From IMG/VR virus record IMGVR_UViG_3300004773_000018, positions 1 to 25,051 of that record: 25,051 nt of DNA; one strand, 5' to 3'. Source of the DNA: a virus. A program made the position numbers and the translations under genes. The notes under the pieces were generated by a model. The model saw nothing but the letters and a program-made list of their open reading frames with translations. It did no database searches and was not told where the DNA came from. Positions 1-14,595 of this stretch are shown one piece after another (the first letter of the stretch is position 1; every line of letters starts with the position of its first letter).

Positions 1-638
1 GGTGTGGTGGTGGGCGGATACTTTGCTAGGGATTCTGCTCTAGGCTTTCTTCGTCTCATTTGCTTGTGTCGAGGTTTAGGAGTTTTAGGTGTAAATGCTT
101 GTGGTTCTAGCGTTTCAGATTTGATACAATATTCAATTTGCGACTTATGAGTGGAAGTTGTTGCAATAGAAGGTATTTGCATTTTGGGCAGTGGAAGTGT
201 TTGCGTTTCAATCACTTCTGCTTTCTTCTCCTTCTTTCTGCCCGCGATGCCCGCGAGAAGCTGCGCCAGGTTACCGCTTATTCCATGCGTAACGTCTTGA
301 CTTACTTGGAGTCGCGCAGATGGGATTGCATGATTGTAAATGCGTTCCGCAAGCCATGCCTTAGCCTGCCAACTTTTCTCGCCCGCAAGTTGTATGTCTC
401 TCAGTAAGGATAGCTCATGCTTTTTTCGAGCCGTCTCCACTCTCTTTCCAAAATCGGGTTTACGTTGCGCCCACGTTCGAATGGTGGAAGGATTAACGCC
501 CACAAGCGCGCCCGCTTTCTCTAAAGTAAATCCACTTCCACAAGCTGCCACAATTTCATCCGCGATTTTGTCCGTAAATATGTCCCGCCCGTTCTTTGCC
601 TTTTCTATCGCGCTTGGAGCTGCGCAAGTTTCATCCAT
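1..638 (-). CDS. HTH protein resembling small terminase subunit (partial, runs off left edge)
   Basis: A leftward frame opens at ATG 638 and stays open to the left edge, giving 212 visible residues; the C-terminus is missing. Residues about 22-70 form a helix-turn-helix-like block (FTLEKAGALVGVNPSTIRTW) followed by a charged helical segment, then a Pro/Thr/Lys/Arg-rich tail from about 135. This order (N-terminal HTH, helical region, basic tail) is that of many phage small terminase subunits, which bind the packaging site and recruit TerL. No Shine-Dalgarno is obvious before the ATG. It is divergent from the rightward genes starting at 773. If it is TerS, TerL should follow just outside the window. 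It could instead be another HTH regulator. The open frame is clear; the function is an inference. Confidence 0.6.
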   Translation of the reverse strand, partial: MDETCAAPSAIEKAKNGRDIFTDKIADEIVAACGSGFTLEKAGALVGVNPSTIRTWAQRKPDFGKRVETARKKHELSLLRDIQLAGEKSWQAKAWLAERIYNHAIPSARLQVSQDVTHGISGNLAQLLAGIAGRKKEKKAEVIETQTLPLPKMQIPSIATTSTHKSQIEYCIKSETLEPQAFTPKTPKPRHKQMRRRKPRAESLAKYPPTTT

Positions 639-772
639 AAGTTGAACTTATATCATCAAATGAATGAAAAGAAAGTATTGATTAGGCCATCCGCTTGTAT
701 TAGATTGCTACTTGCCGAGGGAGAATCCGCTAGGAACTCCCAAGGCATAAAGAAAAAGAAAGGATACACAAT

Positions 773-1225
773 ATGGGAAATAGAGCAGTCATCACGTTGG
801 CAAAAAAGCCAACCTCAAACTCAGTAGGCATATATCTACATTGGAATGGCGGTGCGGAATCGGTCTTGGCGTTTGCTGAGGCTGCAAAGCACTTAGGTGT
901 TCGCCTATACGATGAAACCTACGCAACCGCAAGGCTCGCGCAAATCATCGGAAACTTCTTCGGTGGAACTCTTAGCGTTGGAGTTGGAATCCTAAAGCAT
1001 TTAGATTGCGAAAACTATGACAACGGGACATATAAAGTTTCATTCGAGAATGACGCAGTCGTTATAGAGCAATCCAAGGACGGAAAGAAGAATTGGAAAC
1101 GATTGAACAATGACGAAATACGCAAGCATGCATATTGGCAGGAGAAGGAAGAATCGAAAGGCATCCTCGCCGACATCATAGAAACGAATAAGCGAGCTTT
1201 CAAAGGTGAAGAGGTTGCAAAATGA
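773..1225 (+). CDS. Conserved accessory protein upstream of ArdC, unknown function
   Basis: 150 residues starting MGNRAVIT, with AAAGGA about 9 nt before the ATG. Visible blocks are VGIYLHWNGG near residue 18-27 and a hydrophobic, glycine-rich IIGNFFGGTLSVGVG around residues 58-72; the C-terminal third is charged. I recognise the pattern (MGNRAVIT, YLHWNGG, a GNFFGG block) from conserved hypothetical proteins on plasmids and phages near anti-restriction genes, but know of no assigned function. It heads a rightward unit and its stop codon overlaps the next start as ATGA. No catalytic motif is visible. The gene is confident; a role in the anti-restriction unit is inferred from position only. 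Confidence 0.85.
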   Translation: MGNRAVITLAKKPTSNSVGIYLHWNGGAESVLAFAEAAKHLGVRLYDETYATARLAQIIGNFFGGTLSVGVGILKHLDCENYDNGTYKVSFENDAVVIEQSKDGKKNWKRLNNDEIRKHAYWQEKEESKGILADIIETNKRAFKGEEVAK

Positions 1226-1302
1226 TTGACCTTACCCTAGCAATCCTATTCCTCTCGCCATGCGTTGTCTTTATGGCGATTGGGTATTTTGGCAAAAACT
1301 AA
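1222..1302 (+). CDS. 26-residue single-pass membrane microprotein
   Basis: An ATG inside the overlap ATGA at 1222-1225 opens a 26-residue frame that is almost one hydrophobic helix (MIDLTLAILFLSPCVVFMAI, then GYFGKN). Translation would depend on termination of the 150-residue gene, the pattern used throughout this genome. A single membrane-spanning segment with a short positive C-terminus is the only feature visible. A chance frame of this size is possible, but the exact 4-nt overlap and the membrane-like composition argue for a real microprotein. Confidence 0.5.
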   Translation: MIDLTLAILFLSPCVVFMAIGYFGKN

Positions 1303-1328
1303 ACAAAAGAAAAAGGAGAATACACACA

Positions 1329-2180
1329 ATGAAAACAGGGGATACAAAGAGGATAGTTGAAAAGATAGTGGAAGCACTAGGCAAGGGCGAGATTCCTTGG
1401 CGCAAGCCTTGGCGCAGTGTTGCCGCGCATAATGCAATCAGCGGATCAGAATATAGAGGAGTGAATGCGCTAGTGTTAAACTTGGCGAGTCACTATCCAG
1501 ATCCGCGTTTCTTAACCTATAAGCAAGCCGCCACACTTGGCGCGCAAGTTAAGAAGGGCGAGAAGGGTTGGCCTGTCATATTCTATTCCACAATCAAAAA
1601 GAGTGGAGAGAGCGAGGGAGGAGAAGGCACAGGAAGCGAGAAGGCGAAAACTTTTCGCTTCATGAAACACTACACGGTGTTTAATGCTTCTCAGTGTGAA
1701 GGGATGTCCGAACTAGAAGCAGCCGCTGCGCCTGTTGCTCAGATTGTTGAAGCTGATGAGATAATCAAGCGCATGCCGCGCGCGCCTAGGATAGTCGATG
1801 GCTCGCGTGCTTGCTATATCCCTAGCCAGGATATTGTAAACATGCCGCCCAAAACGGCACACTGGACAAGTGGAAGCGCATATTATGACACCCTATTCCA
1901 TGAATTGACCCACTCCACAGGCCATGAGTCGCGACTAGAACGCGATTTGGGCGGAAACTTTGGGAGCGAAAAGTATGCCAAGGAAGAGTTAGTTGCTGAG
2001 ATTGGAGCGCAATTCTTATGTCAATCATCGGGCATCAATCGCGCTGAAGTTGAGGAAAACGCTGTGGCCTATTGTCAGAATTGGTCACGCGTTCTAAAGA
2101 ATGATCCAAAAATGATATTCTACGCTGCTGCAAAAGCGCAAGCGGCTCATGATTACATCATGGGAAAGGAGAAAAGTTGA
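1329..2180 (+). CDS. ardC: ArdC-like anti-restriction protein (ssDNA-binding N-domain plus zincin metallopeptidase)
   Basis: 283 residues from ATG 1329, chosen because AAAGGAG lies about 10 nt upstream; an in-frame ATG at 1260 has no such site and would add 23 unlikely residues. Residues 1-125 match the ArdC N-terminal domain (GEIPWRKPW, GVNALVLNL, KGEKGWPVIFY). Residues about 140-280 are a zincin domain with HELTHSTGHESRL: His191, Glu192 and His195 as the HExxH site, and a downstream glutamate in EELVAEIGAQF (Glu224) as likely third ligand. ArdC of IncW plasmids counters type I restriction, and the family also occurs in phages, where the domain is classed with polyvalent-protein peptidases. 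Its position in a separate rightward unit fits early expression to protect incoming DNA. Family assignment is strong; activity in this phage is inferred. Confidence 0.93.
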   Translation: MKTGDTKRIVEKIVEALGKGEIPWRKPWRSVAAHNAISGSEYRGVNALVLNLASHYPDPRFLTYKQAATLGAQVKKGEKGWPVIFYSTIKKSGESEGGEGTGSEKAKTFRFMKHYTVFNASQCEGMSELEAAAAPVAQIVEADEIIKRMPRAPRIVDGSRACYIPSQDIVNMPPKTAHWTSGSAYYDTLFHELTHSTGHESRLERDLGGNFGSEKYAKEELVAEIGAQFLCQSSGINRAEVEENAVAYCQNWSRVLKNDPKMIFYAAAKAQAAHDYIMGKEKS

Positions 2181-2329
2181 AAACCTACCTAGTCGAAGTT
2201 TTCGACAAAAAGGATCAATATGGTGGCGGCATGCCTTGCCTTCAATTTGAGGCGACATGTGAAAAAGAAGCACATGAGATCGTCATGGAGAGCCTAGGGA
2301 TCTACATGAGAATGGAGGTAGCGTCATGA
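2177..2329 (+). CDS. Small protein of unknown function with TTG start
   Basis: 50 residues from TTG 2177, which overlaps the ArdC stop as TTGA. AAAGGAG lies 5 nt before the TTG, within the ArdC 3' end, so the unusual start is well supported. The protein begins MKTYLVEVFDKKDQYGG and has a mixed alpha/beta look with two Cys (MPCLQFEATC). Its stop overlaps the next start as ATGA. It is not recognised; the overlaps tie its expression to ArdC. Confidence 0.72.
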   Translation: MKTYLVEVFDKKDQYGGGMPCLQFEATCEKEAHEIVMESLGIYMRMEVAS

Positions 2330-2535
2330 GAGGTAAGGCAGGAAAGTATATGGGTATCGATTATTGCGTTTGGGAGGATTCCAAATATCCAATCTTTTAT
2401 TGGAGTTGGGGTGGATACGGCGGGCAAGTTGAAAACTTGGCGAAGTGTTGGGAATCAATTAGGCGCGCCGCAGGTATATGGGATAAGGATGGCGCAGGCA
2501 ATTGGAGACATTCAAGTGAGGCGATAACGTCATGA
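2326..2535 (+). CDS. Small aromatic-rich protein, unknown function
   Basis: 69 residues, rich in Trp, Tyr and Gly (KYPIFYWSWGGYGGQVENLA). The ATG lies in an ATGA overlap with the preceding gene and has GGAGGT 7 nt upstream, a strong ribosome binding site. No known motif is recognised. The aromatic content suggests a small folded or binding domain, but that is a guess. It belongs to the ArdC-led unit. Confidence 0.75.
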   Translation: MRGKAGKYMGIDYCVWEDSKYPIFYWSWGGYGGQVENLAKCWESIRRAAGIWDKDGAGNWRHSSEAITS

Positions 2536-2666
2536 CATCCTACGCCGTTTACAATTCAGTCGGTCAATTCCAGGCCCGCTTTTTGACCTGGAGAAGCGCA
2601 CTACGTTGGGCAATTCGCGAAGGCATGGAATGGACCGCAGTAATAAGAAAGGAGGTAGGCGAATGA
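2532..2666 (+). CDS. 44-residue basic/aromatic protein, unknown function
   Basis: Starts at ATG 2532 in an ATGA overlap with the 69-residue gene and ends in another ATGA overlap at 2663-2666. The sequence (MTSYAVYNSVGQFQARFLTW and on to RKEVGE) has several Trp and Arg residues and no membrane segment. It is one link in the coupled series of microgenes after ArdC. Not recognised. Confidence 0.65.
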   Translation: MTSYAVYNSVGQFQARFLTWRSALRWAIREGMEWTAVIRKEVGE

Positions 2667-2758
2667 ATTCCCCTCAAATATACGCCTTGGGTTTGCTCCA
2701 TGGTTGTTTGCTTTTTGGCTTTGTATGGCTGGTATGGCCGCGCAGTAAACGCAAATAG
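2663..2758 (+). CDS. 31-residue single-pass membrane microprotein
   Basis: Starts at ATG 2663 in an ATGA overlap. The best ribosome binding site in the unit, AAAGGAGGT, lies 6 nt upstream. Residues about 6-26 form one hydrophobic helix (IYALGLLHGCLLFGFVWLVW) followed by a basic end, PRSKRK, which predicts the C-terminus in the cytoplasm. This is a typical microprotein layout; function unknown. The site and overlap make it more credible than its length alone would. Confidence 0.65.
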   Translation: MNSPQIYALGLLHGCLLFGFVWLVWPRSKRK

Positions 2759-2769
2759 TCCCGCCTTGT

Positions 2770-2823
2770 CTCTCCCTTTAGCACGGGGAGAGCAAAGGAT
2801 GGATTAAACTGCTAGGTTTATCC
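2770..2823 (+). promoter_or_regulatory. Two adjacent hairpins after the ArdC-led genes
   Basis: CTCTCCC (2770-2776) pairs with GGGAGAG (2786-2792) across a 9-nt loop. Immediately after, GGATTAAAC (2801-2809) pairs with GTTTATCC (2816-2823) with one bulged T. Neither is followed by a T-run, so they are not classical intrinsic terminators. They may stabilise the mRNA 3' end, attenuate transcription, or structure the leader of the gene at 2886. The pairings are visible; the role is inferred. Confidence 0.45.
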
Positions 2824-2885
2824 ACTCCAAACGGCAGCGCAGTCTTATTGATTGCGCGAATGAAAGAAAGAAAGAGGAAATGAAA

Positions 2886-3059
2886 ATGAGTAAAGATGAA
2901 TTGAATAAAAAATATCGTGGAAAGTATGTTGAGATTACAAAGTCATACGATCATATTAAAAAATGTTATGAATATATCGTGTTGAAATCATATAGCAAAA
3001 TACGAGAGAACACTACACTTGGGGAAGATGTTGGAACGCCTATGGAATATTGCAGATAG
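2886..3059 (+). CDS. Small basic protein, unknown function, A+T-richer than neighbours
   Basis: 57 residues from ATG 2886 (MSKDELNKKYRGKYVEITK), with GAGG 8 nt upstream; an ATG 6 nt earlier is in frame but too close to that site. The protein is Lys/Tyr-rich and ends LGEDVGTPMEYCR. The central GKYVEI and C-terminal LGED...P blocks resemble small phage proteins I have seen, without known function. Its codons are visibly richer in A and T than the ArdC unit, which may mean separate acquisition. Repeat copies lie on both sides. Confidence 0.6.
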   Translation: MSKDELNKKYRGKYVEITKSYDHIKKCYEYIVLKSYSKIRENTTLGEDVGTPMEYCR

Positions 3060-3142
3060 GAAGCAACGCCAAGGGTTCAAGCTCCAACAGCTTTCGCGCT
3101 TGCCTATAAACGGCAGCTCAGCCTATAAGGAGCATATAAAAC

Positions 3143-3325
3143 ATGACAGAAGATGAAATCATAAAGGCTTACCTTTCGCGCCTAGGTAAGAAGGGCGGGA
3201 GCGTCAAAGGATCTTGCAAGGCTCGCAAGTTATCGCGGGAGCATTACCAAACGGTAGCGCAGGCACAGCGGGAGCGTTGGCAGAAGTGGCGGACCGAAAA
3301 CGGTAGGCCAGCTATCAAACGGTAG
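3143..3325 (+). CDS. Small basic protein, unknown function
   Basis: 60 residues, ATG preceded by AAGGAG at about 10 nt. The protein is strongly basic and mostly helical (SRLGKKGGSVKGSCKARKLS, then AQAQRERWQKWR). The KKGGxxKG...KARK pattern recalls small nucleic-acid-associated phage or plasmid proteins, but no family is certain. Copies of the dispersed repeat fall inside and just after the gene, so part of the coding sequence is shaped by the repeat. It is the last clear rightward gene before the converging leftward unit. Confidence 0.65.
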   Translation: MTEDEIIKAYLSRLGKKGGSVKGSCKARKLSREHYQTVAQAQRERWQKWRTENGRPAIKR

Positions 3326-3341
3326 CGTTAAGGTCTCTATA

Positions 3342-3371
3342 ATGACGCAATAAAGACGCATGTCCTATAAT
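3342..3371 (+). promoter_or_regulatory. Possible promoter with twin TATAAT boxes
   Basis: TATAAT occurs at 3338-3343 and again at 3366-3371 in similar context (CTATAATG). The second has ATGACG 18 nt upstream, matching TTGACA at four of six positions. No rightward gene follows; transcription would run into the hairpin at 3388-3413 and could only make a short RNA. This is a weak candidate based on motif matches alone. Confidence 0.22.
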
Positions 3372-3375
3372 GGCT

Positions 3376-3413
3376 ATATAAAAACAAGAGGCTAGGTTTT
3401 TACGCCTAGCCTC
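3376..3413 (-). terminator. Intrinsic terminator of the leftward unit
   Basis: GAGGCTAGG (3388-3396) and CCTAGCCTC (3405-3413) make a perfect 9-bp stem with an 8-nt loop. Read leftward, the stem is followed by TTGTTTTTATAT, a clear U-tract. It lies between the rightward gene ending at 3325 and the leftward genes ending at 3458 or 3645. It should stop leftward transcription and may also act weakly on the other strand, although no T-run follows there. Confidence 0.78.
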
Positions 3414-3457
3414 AAGACCGTCTTCCCTTTCGGTACTGGCGGGTTGTAATCGGCAGC

Positions 3458-3658
3458 CTAGCGTCCAATCCTGCAACAGCAAGCCCTATTACCTAACGGC
3501 AGGTAAGGCATTGGAAGCTTCTCTACCTTAAATTTGACGCTATAAGGCTTTTCTTGCTTTTCCCGCTGTCTCCTATCTGCCACTCCACAAAGACGCTTTT
3601 TAGACCCATCCTTGCGCTTTTGTGTGGCATCCTGTCGCATTGTTTTACCAATTGGCAC
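3458..3658 (-). CDS. Possible small basic protein (doubtful)
   Basis: A 66-residue frame starting GTG at 3658, overlapping the end of the upstream gene by 14 nt; an internal ATG at residue 7 is an alternative start. The product is very rich in Lys/Arg (KRKDGSKKRLCGVADRRQRE) and ends in a cysteine cluster, RACCCRIGR. Two weak copies of the dispersed repeat fall in its 3' part. There is no good ribosome binding site. It may be the last gene of the leftward unit or a non-coding stretch. Confidence 0.35.
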   Translation of the reverse strand: MPIGKTMRQDATQKRKDGSKKRLCGVADRRQREKQEKPYSVKFKVEKLPMPYLPLGNRACCCRIGR

Positions 3659-3887
3659 AGCTCCAGAAACGTGGGGTTAGCTTACTAGGAGGTTTAGAGT
3701 CGCACTGATGCCTAGCTCTGAAGCTCCTACGGCGGTCTGGATTGCTCTTCTTGATAGTCATCTTTGGATCTCCATAGCGGATAGTCTTGCTTTCACCCCC
3801 ACTACAAGCGCGCACCACAAACTTCTTGCGCTCTCCAGGTGTACGCCTTGTGCTGTTGCATGGCAGTTCTCTAGGATTCAAGGTCAT
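3645..3887 (-). CDS. Conserved phage Cys/His protein (FRARHxC...WSC type)
   Basis: 80 residues, ATG with GAGG just upstream (GAGGTAG ATG), overlapping the preceding gene by 17 nt. The core KKFVVRACSGG, then RYGDPKMTIKKSNPDRRRSF, ARHQC and PRFWSC matches a conserved block I recognise from many podoviruses and other phages, either stand-alone or near head genes; I know of no proven function. Cys28, His60, Cys62 and Cys77 could make a zinc site (inference). The first 20 residues look less conserved and the true start might lie nearer KKFVV. Confidence 0.8.
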   Translation of the reverse strand: MTLNPRELPCNSTRRTPGERKKFVVRACSGGESKTIRYGDPKMTIKKSNPDRRRSFRARHQCDSKPPSKLTPRFWSCANW

Positions 3888-4530: not shown

Positions 4531-6489
4531 TTAGAAAGCAGTCTGATTGGCAATATACAAGCCGCTGTCAGACAATATCTTGTTGGCTTTATGGAGGCGT
4601 TTAAGATAGCGATAAAAGGTACTTTCGGATACTTCCAGCTTTTCAATGATATGACGACATAAATCACCCGCTTGCCACTGCTTGCTACCCATCTCAGTTA
4701 AGAACCTTTTATCGTCAACCGCCTTGTGTGCGCCTGGCTTCTTTAGTTTATCTGGATTGAGTGCAAAGTTGGCTTGGAACAGCGGGTAATGCCATTGAAC
4801 GACAAAGCTATCTACTGGCGGAAAGTTACGCAGTGTGATGTCACAAGTGTAAGTCTTCTCATCCTCCTCGTGGGCAGTCAGAACGACCAACGTATCTGGA
4901 TTACGGGCGAACACGCCCGAACCACTGAAGCGGTCAATCGACTCTGCGCCCGACTTGTTGCCCTTGCTGAAATGGTGGCTTAGGATGATCGACAAGTTGT
5001 GGCGTGTGGCTAGGTACTCAAATTCATTCATGAGACTTGACATATCGCCCGCGCTGTTCTCGTCCCTCTCGCCCATCAGCATATAGTTTGGGTCAAGGAT
5101 AATGGCTTGGTATCCCTTTCCTTCAATCTGCTTCTCGATCATAGGACGGATGAGAGTCAAGTCAGCAGCGTGACCTCTCAGTGTCCACACATCAAAGTCA
5201 TCGGCCTTGTCTTCTAGCCCCTTGGCTTTGATAACATCAGCTAAACGATTTCGGAACGACCATTCTTGAATCTCGAAATTGATAAACAATACCCGCGACA
5301 TCTTGCACTGCTGCCCCCACCACGGCACGCCAGCGTGTAACGAAAGGGCTAGGTCGATTAGACTCCAACTCTTAAACGCCTTGCTACCTCCACCCAGCAA
5401 CATCTTTCCGCCTCTGTGCAACATTCCATCAATTAACGTCTCTGGTGCGGGTAAGTCTTCCTTAACAAGTTGTGCATAAGATTTGATTGGCGGCCACTCG
5501 TCCGTCTTCGGTTTGATACCAAGTGCTACGGCGGGTTCAATCATCGGTAGTTCATTCATCTTTCCTCCCTTGTAGAACCATAACAGGCTCTGCATTTTGT
5601 CGTTTCTTTTTGCCCCAGGTATCCGAACTGGCTGACTAGGCTTGAATGTTGCTGGGTCACATCCAAGCGGAATAAGAAATGTTTTCAACTGGTCAATCAA
5701 TTCCTTGTTGGATGGCATATCAAACCATCCATGCAAACTCTTGCCACCAGTATCCACAACGGCACGCAACCGAAGCTTAAACAAGTCACGCATCAATTGG
5801 AACACCGCGCCCATCTGTGGCTTAGTTAGAACATCCGATTCGACAACCAAGAATATCCTATCCTCAACCGTATCGTTGGACCTACTGACTGTGCCTTGCT
5901 TGTAGGTCGCGCCAGTTGTGTACTGCCCGATTGGCTCATCCAGCTTCTTCCAATCGTAAGCCGTGCGGAAATTCTGCGGATGCTTTCCGCTATCCGTCAC
6001 ATTACCTATCCAGATGTTATCAACAGCGTTGAACAGCGACAGGAACAACTGATAGTCTTGGCTGGGATCGTCCAGCTTGGTCGGACTTTCCTCAAACATA
6101 TCAGCAGTCTCCCAATTGTAGTGCGTTAAGTAGCGTTGCTTGTTTGACTCAGCAATCGTCTTAATCCTATCCAACACCTCGGAGTGCGGGTCTTTCTTAA
6201 TTACCAACTTAGGTACGGCTGTGCCACCCGACATAATGTTTACTGGCTTGTAAAGCACATCGCTGGATATAGCTCGGCGCAACTTGCGATTGGCCTCATC
6301 CCGATACGGCGTGCAGGAAGTATGCCAGCAGAAGATAGTCGGCGCGCCATCTACGAACACCGTTGTATCTCTAATGCGAGTGTGGCTGGTATGCGCAGCC
6401 TCGCCTGGACACTTGCACAGCCCGTGGTTCTCAGACTGCCAATCCACTTGGCCTACGATCTCTTCAGCTTGCCGTTGTGCTGTGGTCAT
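4531..6489 (-). CDS. Fused primase-helicase (zinc-binding, AEP-like primase, RecA-like helicase, winged helix)
   Basis: 652 residues from ATG 6489; an in-frame TTG at 6498 would add three. In numbering from that TTG: residues 25-62 hold a Cys/His cluster (CKC ... HTSH ... FCWHTSC) that may bind zinc. Residues about 210-310 resemble an archaeo-eukaryotic primase core: VVESD (218-222), TGGKSLHGWF (250-259) and VRIPG (291-295). Residues about 355-560 are a RepA/AAA_25-type RecA fold with Walker A GGSKAFKSW (370-378), Walker B AIILDP (465-470) and a HH sensor (508-509). The last 60 residues look like a winged helix (VSESTFYRYLKRLHKANKI). It would unwind DNA and make primers at the phage fork. Phe replaces the usual Gly before the Walker Lys, a variant I associate with this phage family. 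It is the last gene of the leftward replication operon. Confidence 0.9.
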   Translation of the reverse strand: MTTAQRQAEEIVGQVDWQSENHGLCKCPGEAAHTSHTRIRDTTVFVDGAPTIFCWHTSCTPYRDEANRKLRRAISSDVLYKPVNIMSGGTAVPKLVIKKDPHSEVLDRIKTIAESNKQRYLTHYNWETADMFEESPTKLDDPSQDYQLFLSLFNAVDNIWIGNVTDSGKHPQNFRTAYDWKKLDEPIGQYTTGATYKQGTVSRSNDTVEDRIFLVVESDVLTKPQMGAVFQLMRDLFKLRLRAVVDTGGKSLHGWFDMPSNKELIDQLKTFLIPLGCDPATFKPSQPVRIPGAKRNDKMQSLLWFYKGGKMNELPMIEPAVALGIKPKTDEWPPIKSYAQLVKEDLPAPETLIDGMLHRGGKMLLGGGSKAFKSWSLIDLALSLHAGVPWWGQQCKMSRVLFINFEIQEWSFRNRLADVIKAKGLEDKADDFDVWTLRGHAADLTLIRPMIEKQIEGKGYQAIILDPNYMLMGERDENSAGDMSSLMNEFEYLATRHNLSIILSHHFSKGNKSGAESIDRFSGSGVFARNPDTLVVLTAHEEDEKTYTCDITLRNFPPVDSFVVQWHYPLFQANFALNPDKLKKPGAHKAVDDKRFLTEMGSKQWQAGDLCRHIIEKLEVSESTFYRYLKRLHKANKILSDSGLYIANQTAF

Positions 6490-6577
6490 AAAATTCAAAC
6501 TGGCTCTGATTCAAGGGGTAGACACACTGAGGAAACGCCCGATGCAGGATCTCCCTGCACACCACAACGCCAGTTAG

Positions 6578-14229: not shown

Positions 14230-14595
14230 ATGAAAGCAATAACAATGATAACACTGACGGCGATGCTGATGGCATCGGTGATGGCTGAAGATGATGACGC
14301 TGACGCTGCTGATTTTGTGGGAGCAGTGCTAAAACGCAACGGATTCTCGTGTGGTCGTGGATGCGTAATATCAGAGAATGGTGGAATGGCTTATTCATCG
14401 TCATCTGGTAGGTCAATAATTTCTACTGAAGGTTTCTATTTTAAGTCTGGAAGTAGTATTGTTGGGAAAGATGAAACATTCATATCGAAGTCTAGGAATT
14501 TCTTTTATGGAACTTCCGCAACGATTAAGGCTGGTTCTGCCTATATGAATGGAGACGCTGTTTGGGTTGGATCTCAAGAAGAGGATAATGATTAA
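14230..14595 (+). CDS. Exported small acidic protein, lone rightward gene (moron candidate)
   Basis: 121 residues with a clear signal peptide: MKAITMITLTAMLMASVMA then an acidic EDDDADAADF, so cleavage after residue 19 is likely. The mature part is Ser/Gly-rich and beta-like with two Cys close together (SCGRGC) that could pair in the periplasm; repeated short strands (SIISTEGFYF, SSIVGKDETF, SATIKAGSAY) suggest a small beta structure. It is the only rightward gene among some 20 kb of leftward genes and shares the TTAA of its stop with the converging gene. This fits a separately controlled moron affecting the host envelope. No Shine-Dalgarno is evident. Function unknown. Confidence 0.7.
   Translation: MKAITMITLTAMLMASVMAEDDDADAADFVGAVLKRNGFSCGRGCVISENGGMAYSSSSGRSIISTEGFYFKSGSSIVGKDETFISKSRNFFYGTSATIKAGSAYMNGDAVWVGSQEEDND

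Follow-up and report, generated by a model that had tools for sequence, protein, structure and literature searches.

The ArdC proteins of R388 and pSa are known from conjugation, in which DNA enters single-stranded, whereas a tailed phage injects double-stranded DNA. The N-terminal domain of these proteins (ArdC-N) binds single-stranded DNA (ssDNA), is typical of conjugative elements and has been proposed to protect the ssDNA of invaders (PMC5512222). Ocr of phage T7 inhibits type I restriction and BREX (PMC7261183, PMC10149784). Here we describe a phage locus in which ArdC occupies a position that an Ocr-like protein takes in relatives.

The window analysed comprises 25,051 bases of the virus record IMGVR_UViG_3300004773_000018 and contains a rightward gene run between the terminase small subunit gene (terS, minus strand) and a leftward gene block that begins at approximately 3,650. 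Relatives were gathered from IMG/VR via MGNR, ArdC and m60, and 76 distinct complete islands (terS to m60) were kept. Our reading, which we hold to be probable, is that of an island in which small genes form a fixed frame for interchangeable modules, including a single-occupancy counter-restriction slot. The features of the island are as follows (dN/dS values are medians):

3..638, minus strand: terS, terminase small subunit (PHROG 4102, E 1e-12), divergent, the left border of the island
678..706, plus strand: sigma-70-like promoter TTGATT-17-TAGATT, which would drive the island
714..747, plus strand: leader hairpin GGGAGAATCCGCTAGGAACTCCC, which precedes the first gene and folds in the window (z -2.1)
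773..1225, plus strand: MGNR-family protein of 150 aa, one of many alternative first genes (dN/dS 0.11)
1222..1302, plus strand: m26, hydrophobic protein of 26 aa, ATGA overlap with the first gene (dN/dS 0.17)
1329..2180, plus strand: ArdC, occupant of the one-gene slot (Pfam, PHROG 7245, PDB 6I89/6SNA; dN/dS 0.04)
2177..2329, plus strand: m50, overlapping partner of ArdC, TTG start and TTGA overlap (dN/dS 0.08)
2326..2535, plus strand: m69, optional microgene ahead of m44 (dN/dS 0.14)
2532..2666, plus strand: m44, conserved flank downstream of the slot, in 57 of 76 islands (dN/dS 0.24)
2663..2758, plus strand: m31, hydrophobic microprotein (YALGLLHG), last of the overlapping train, in 55 of 76 islands (dN/dS 0.14)
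2759..2829, plus strand: R element, a structured spacer with a long irregular hairpin and a second hairpin (covariance model match 58.5 bits)
2836..2858, plus strand: third spacer hairpin, GCGCA-loop-TGCGC, with an AAACGGYAGCG repeat at its base
2886..3059 (start 2880 or 2886), plus strand: m59/F31, variable gene 3' of the R element, in 3 islands only
3143..3325, plus strand: m60, the right anchor of the island, 76 copies, universal in the lineage (dN/dS 0.23)

Hypervariable in content and directed rightward, this accessory island lies between terS, its left anchor in the 76 islands, and the primase side, where a primase/helicase gene (4531-6498) lies on the strand opposite to the island. Across the 76 islands a TTGAC-like box with 16-18 nt spacing recurs about 38 nt from the terS start; 13% reached a promoter score of at least 10, as against 1.6% of shuffles, while the window's own copy is weak (8 of 12) and promoters internal to the islands occur at 0.04 per kb. 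The island would be transcribed rightward, and probably early, from one sigma-70-like promoter beside terS. The leader hairpin was present in 21 of the 76 islands, ahead of differing first genes; an apical CCGCTAGG-type loop and an A-rich internal loop are common to this hairpin (714-747) and the second hairpin of the R element (2800-2829), and the two are possibly one recognised motif. Several genes in the first position (e.g. L089:237, L094:4778, L133:1145, L114:1514, L120:1507) have unrelated bodies and a common N-terminal TEASAVKVTR-like stretch immediately downstream of the promoter, as though new genes had been joined to a conserved start. Elsewhere in the window, a strong terminator-like hairpin that reads leftward lies just right of m60 (3388-3413), where the two gene blocks converge, and a single rightward ORF of 121 aa with a signal-peptide-like start (14230-14595) is found inside the leftward structural gene block.

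The gene order was found to be the first gene (MGNR or alternatives), m26, the slot, m69 where present, m44, extra genes, m31, the spacer, variable genes and m60. Islands held approximately 7.6 called genes each, and among the roughly 121 families, a count from an imperfect gene caller that missed GP88 and DUF7227 genes in gaps of 620-740 nt, 55 occurred in one island. Divergence of m26 and of ArdC was hardly correlated with that of terS (rho 0.03 and 0.12, respectively), and m26 copies that are nearly identical adjoin terS genes with differences at 30-47% of their sites. This weak correlation indicates exchange of modules rather than descent of one cassette. Among the variable genes we found a sliding-clamp-like protein (F49, DNA_pol3_beta_2; L094:6487-7020 and L120:3066-3611) and a RadC-like protein (L008:5979-6434); a PADLOC scan of 96 island families returned weak matches only.

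The initial annotation of this DNA had described an intact ArdC followed and preceded by a train of five overlapping microgenes, and both descriptions are borne out. All five 4-nt overlaps are present, at 1222, 2177, 2326, 2532 and 2663, those at 1222, 2326, 2532 and 2663 being ATGA and that at 2177 being TTGA with a TTG start; a gap of 26 nt, with no overlap, separates the end of m26 (1302) from the start of ArdC (1329). The overlaps recur in relatives: an NTGA overlap start was found in all 37 homologues of m26, each of which is 26 aa long, in 16 of 16 copies of m50 and in 47 of 56 copies of m31. The optional m69 was found in 6 islands, with m44 always next to it. In relatives, pN/pS of the microgenes was 0.21-0.43 in frame and 0.90-2.14 in the other two frames, with an excess of changes at third codon positions of the microgene frames; over all gene alignments, including ArdC, MGNR and m60, the corresponding values were 0.07-0.43 and about 0.9-3.3. 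The microgenes are thus protein-coding, with purifying selection confined to the annotated frame; unconserved frames in relatives, which the initial annotation had named as evidence against them, were looked for and did not occur. Judged by hydrophobicity only, m26 and m31 have membrane character.

The window's ArdC contains both Pfam domains above the cut-offs, ArdcN (PF08401, 8e-33) followed by MPTase-PolyVal (PF18818, 1e-37), and matches the solved ArdC structures 6I89 and 6SNA at 4e-46. Its HExxH zinc motif (HELTHSTGH) aligns with HEATHWTGH of these structures, and an EEL(V/I)AE motif downstream of the zinc motif is common to all of them. Directly 3' of ArdC, m50 was found in 15 of 15 islands, with a TTG start in 16 of 16 copies, and among the microproteins it is the only one tied to ArdC. 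No match to m50 was obtained in phage records outside the lineage, and the ArdC-m50 unit was found only within this phage lineage. We propose that ArdC would bind the phage DNA via its ArdC-N domain and shield it from restriction enzymes, as proposed for plasmids, although its target may differ, because the DNA of a tailed phage enters double-stranded and conjugative DNA single-stranded. m50 would be translated from the ArdC message, probably at a lower level owing to its TTG start within the overlap, and is likely to assist ArdC or to regulate it.

Six larger families were found between the first gene/m26 and m44, and their occurrence was determined by tblastn. Among the 76 islands, GP88 was present in 19, ArdC in 15, DUF7227 in 15, the Ocr-like F24 in 5, DUF7222 in 5 and F30 in 4; exactly one of the six families occurred in 63 islands, none in 13 and two in none (permutation p = 2e-4, no such case in 5,000 random reassortments, related phages not being independent samples). 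Pfam matches were obtained for DUF7227 (1e-84), GP88 (5e-31) and DUF7222 (4e-7), and none for F30. All five F24 members matched PHROG 2568 (Ocr-like anti-restriction; best E 1e-5) and are strongly acidic (pI 4.1-4.4), a composition like that of a DNA mimic, and in a single BLASTP comparison F24 was 34% identical to T7 Ocr over 58 residues (E 3e-6). The Pfam ocr match (0.011) lay below the cut-off, no sequence match was found in the PDB, and with a model of pLDDT 69.7 Foldseek listed Ocr (6r9b) as the third match at an E-value of only 2.8, so the assignment of F24 to Ocr is a distant one made at the sequence level. The anti-restriction role first suggested for this region is supported by ArdC here and by the putative Ocr-like protein that fills the slot in some relatives. 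As ArdC and the Ocr-like protein occupy one slot, the other occupants (GP88, DUF7227, DUF7222 and F30) are predicted, by position, to be candidate counter-restriction proteins. No mention of DUF7227 or DUF7222 was found in the open-access papers searched, nor was GP88 described there in this sense.

A single slot at a given locus may seem exclusive even where its occupants are not functionally equivalent. It is conceivable that the island is an exchangeable accessory region with no common theme, in which recombination between the fixed flanks m26 and m44 produces the exclusivity and the occupants are functionally unrelated; the non-defence genes elsewhere in the island (the beta-clamp-like F49 and the RadC-like protein) and the 13 islands with none of the six families would fit such an origin. 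We consider this unlikely, given that two of the six occupants belong independently to known anti-restriction families and that no annotated function other than anti-restriction appears in the slot. A role of ArdC and its alternatives in phage DNA replication or ssDNA handling instead of counter-defence would agree with the ssDNA-binding nature of ArdC-N (PMC5512222), with the primase/helicase gene nearby on the other strand and with the beta-clamp-like module of two islands, but an Ocr-like DNA mimic is implausible as a substitute for a replication factor, and the replication genes are stable, in contrast to the exchanged genes of the slot, which makes such a role very unlikely.

The initial annotation had also compared the genes for MGNR and ArdC to a cassette from the leading region of plasmids, and this part did not hold. 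MGNR (AF2 model, pLDDT 92.7) gave no significant fold match in the PDB and only uncharacterised phage proteins in BFVD; its relatives were found in a range of phages and in 42 contigs of bacteria and archaea, many of which are from gut or rumen genomes. Among the 76 islands MGNR occurred in 10 and ArdC in 15, and the two coincided in 3; at distant MGNR loci they coincided in 8 of 113. On these low counts a functional pair was rejected, and MGNR and ArdC are separate modules. Of 72,556 plasmid records, 5 contained MGNR, and the slot alternatives were nearly absent from plasmids: GP88 had no match and DUF7227 had two, both in non-mobilizable records, one of them adjoining the viral-type recombinase YqaJ. 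These counts for MGNR, GP88 and DUF7227 do not support a plasmid origin of the island, which is a phage structure. Capture of the cassette from the leading region of a conjugative plasmid, in which MGNR and ArdC would have moved together and the microproteins would be extra anti-defence factors, could draw on the association of ArdC-N with conjugative elements (PMC5512222) and on two Acinetobacter MOBQ plasmids examined, in which MGNR lies in a run of small genes near the TraD/relaxase end; no annotated ArdC was found near MGNR in either of the two. Set against the rarity of the pair, the plasmid counts and the restriction of the ArdC-m50 unit to this phage lineage, such a capture is very improbable.

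Our preferred reading, an island of interchangeable modules in a fixed frame, also takes in the 127-nt spacer 3' of m31, which would separate the overlapping train from independently exchanged genes. The segment 2752-2885 folds into three hairpins (-44.1 kcal/mol, z -3.67). In an alignment of 47 copies of the R element (~70 nt), 17 pairs were supported, 13 of them with changes on both sides; standard pairs made up 99.1% of cells, as against 47-63% when the partner was slid by 1-3 columns, covariation was 0.49 as against 0.11-0.22 in the slid controls, and G-U pairs were kept in 14 and 23 cells at two pairs. With a covariance model the R element was found once or twice in each of the 76 islands; except for weak echoes of the palindrome, the matches lie on the coding strand. 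The genes upstream of it belong to 26 families and those downstream to 42, in 77 combinations. A pattern scan of 2.9 million IMG/VR contigs retrieved 45 contigs, all 45 with markers of this lineage. No Rfam family reached its gathering score in the window, and the only match in a scan of 600-3700 at E<=1 was a chance one that did not involve the R element; an RNA known to Rfam was thereby rejected. In the same spacer a repeat, AAACGGYAGCGCAG, was observed at 2829-2842 and again at 3108-3121, 3249-3262, 3298-3311 and 3317-3330; its core, AACGG[ACT]AG, has a coding-strand density of 1.96 per kb in the 76 islands, as against 0.011 outside them and 0.04 on the other strand, with 152 of 414 copies inside m60, and an iteron, a processing site and homology for swapping are candidate roles.

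A strong, palindromic hairpin right after a stop codon and at module boundaries could act as a rho-independent terminator; alternatively, it could function in the DNA only, as a site of recombination or of protein binding, and play no part in the mRNA. An ordinary terminator was ruled out, as no U-tract follows the hairpin. G-U pairs are kept, it is always the coding strand that gives the best matches, and the gene run continues downstream with no promoter-like site found on the plus strand of the window spacer, all of which leaves either version rather doubtful. Most likely, the R element processes or stabilises the mRNA, a role that we liken to that of the hairpins in T7 early mRNA; at the DNA level it probably has a second role as a boundary for homologous exchange, a block of homology by which gene modules would be swapped.

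Counter-restriction proteins are small, evolve fast and are difficult to detect via similarity, and the slot would provide a position-based rule for finding more of them, with DUF7227 and GP88, two functionally uncharacterised Pfam families, as candidates. The prediction for DUF7227 is testable at once, because its relatives, found in 186 phage records and mostly in Pseudomonas phages, include cultured ones such as PAK_P1. The conserved structured spacer would offer a concrete case of how phages swap small genes while the operon keeps working. The strongest form of the proposal, that DUF7227, GP88, DUF7222 and F30 are four undescribed anti-restriction families replacing ArdC and Ocr one for one and, in addition, that the R element, as a new phage RNA, both acts on the polycistronic message and marks a swapping boundary, is put forward tentatively; if true, it would make the island a natural screen for counter-defence genes.

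Compared with ArdC of pSa and R388 (6I89, 6SNA), the window's protein shares the ArdcN and zincin metallopeptidase domains over 270 aa and the HExTH and EEL(V/I)AE motifs; it differs in being phage-borne, in always being followed by the overlapping, TTG-started m50 and in lying in a slot that unrelated families also use. With T7 Ocr (gene 0.3) and the T7 early region the lineage has in common a putative Ocr-like protein, in the slot of 5 relatives, a host-type promoter and small overlapping genes as in 0.3/0.4, whereas the likeness of F24 to Ocr is limited to those 58 residues, the window has ArdC instead of Ocr, and the island adjoins terS and the primase side. The anti-defence islands of large phages, e.g. 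Schizotequatroviruses (PMC12028318), are likewise replaceable blocks of counter-defence genes, whereas the island described here measures approximately 2-3 kb and combines a fixed frame with one single-occupancy slot in dozens of relatives. The SAS/ESAS repeats of cluster K mycobacteriophages (PMC3203893) resemble the R element in being phage-specific, in containing inverted repeats, in lying between genes and in mostly sharing one orientation; SAS are linked to the starts of translation and to certain genes, whereas the R element starts at the upstream stop codon and precedes many gene families. As described in PMC4503421, which cites Arbiol 2010 and Comeau 2014, the PeSL promoter-terminator cassettes of T4-like phages share with the R element a recurrent stem-loop between small shuffled genes of a hypervariable region. 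The R element has the stem-loop at the boundaries of shuffled genes and lacks the early promoter within the element; in the window spacer no U-tract follows it and the coding strand holds no promoter-like site, so that it is not an ordinary terminator and, strictly, not a PeSL either. Relative to the PeSL cassettes, it is a strongly covarying two-hairpin structure present in one or two copies per genome in a different phage group.
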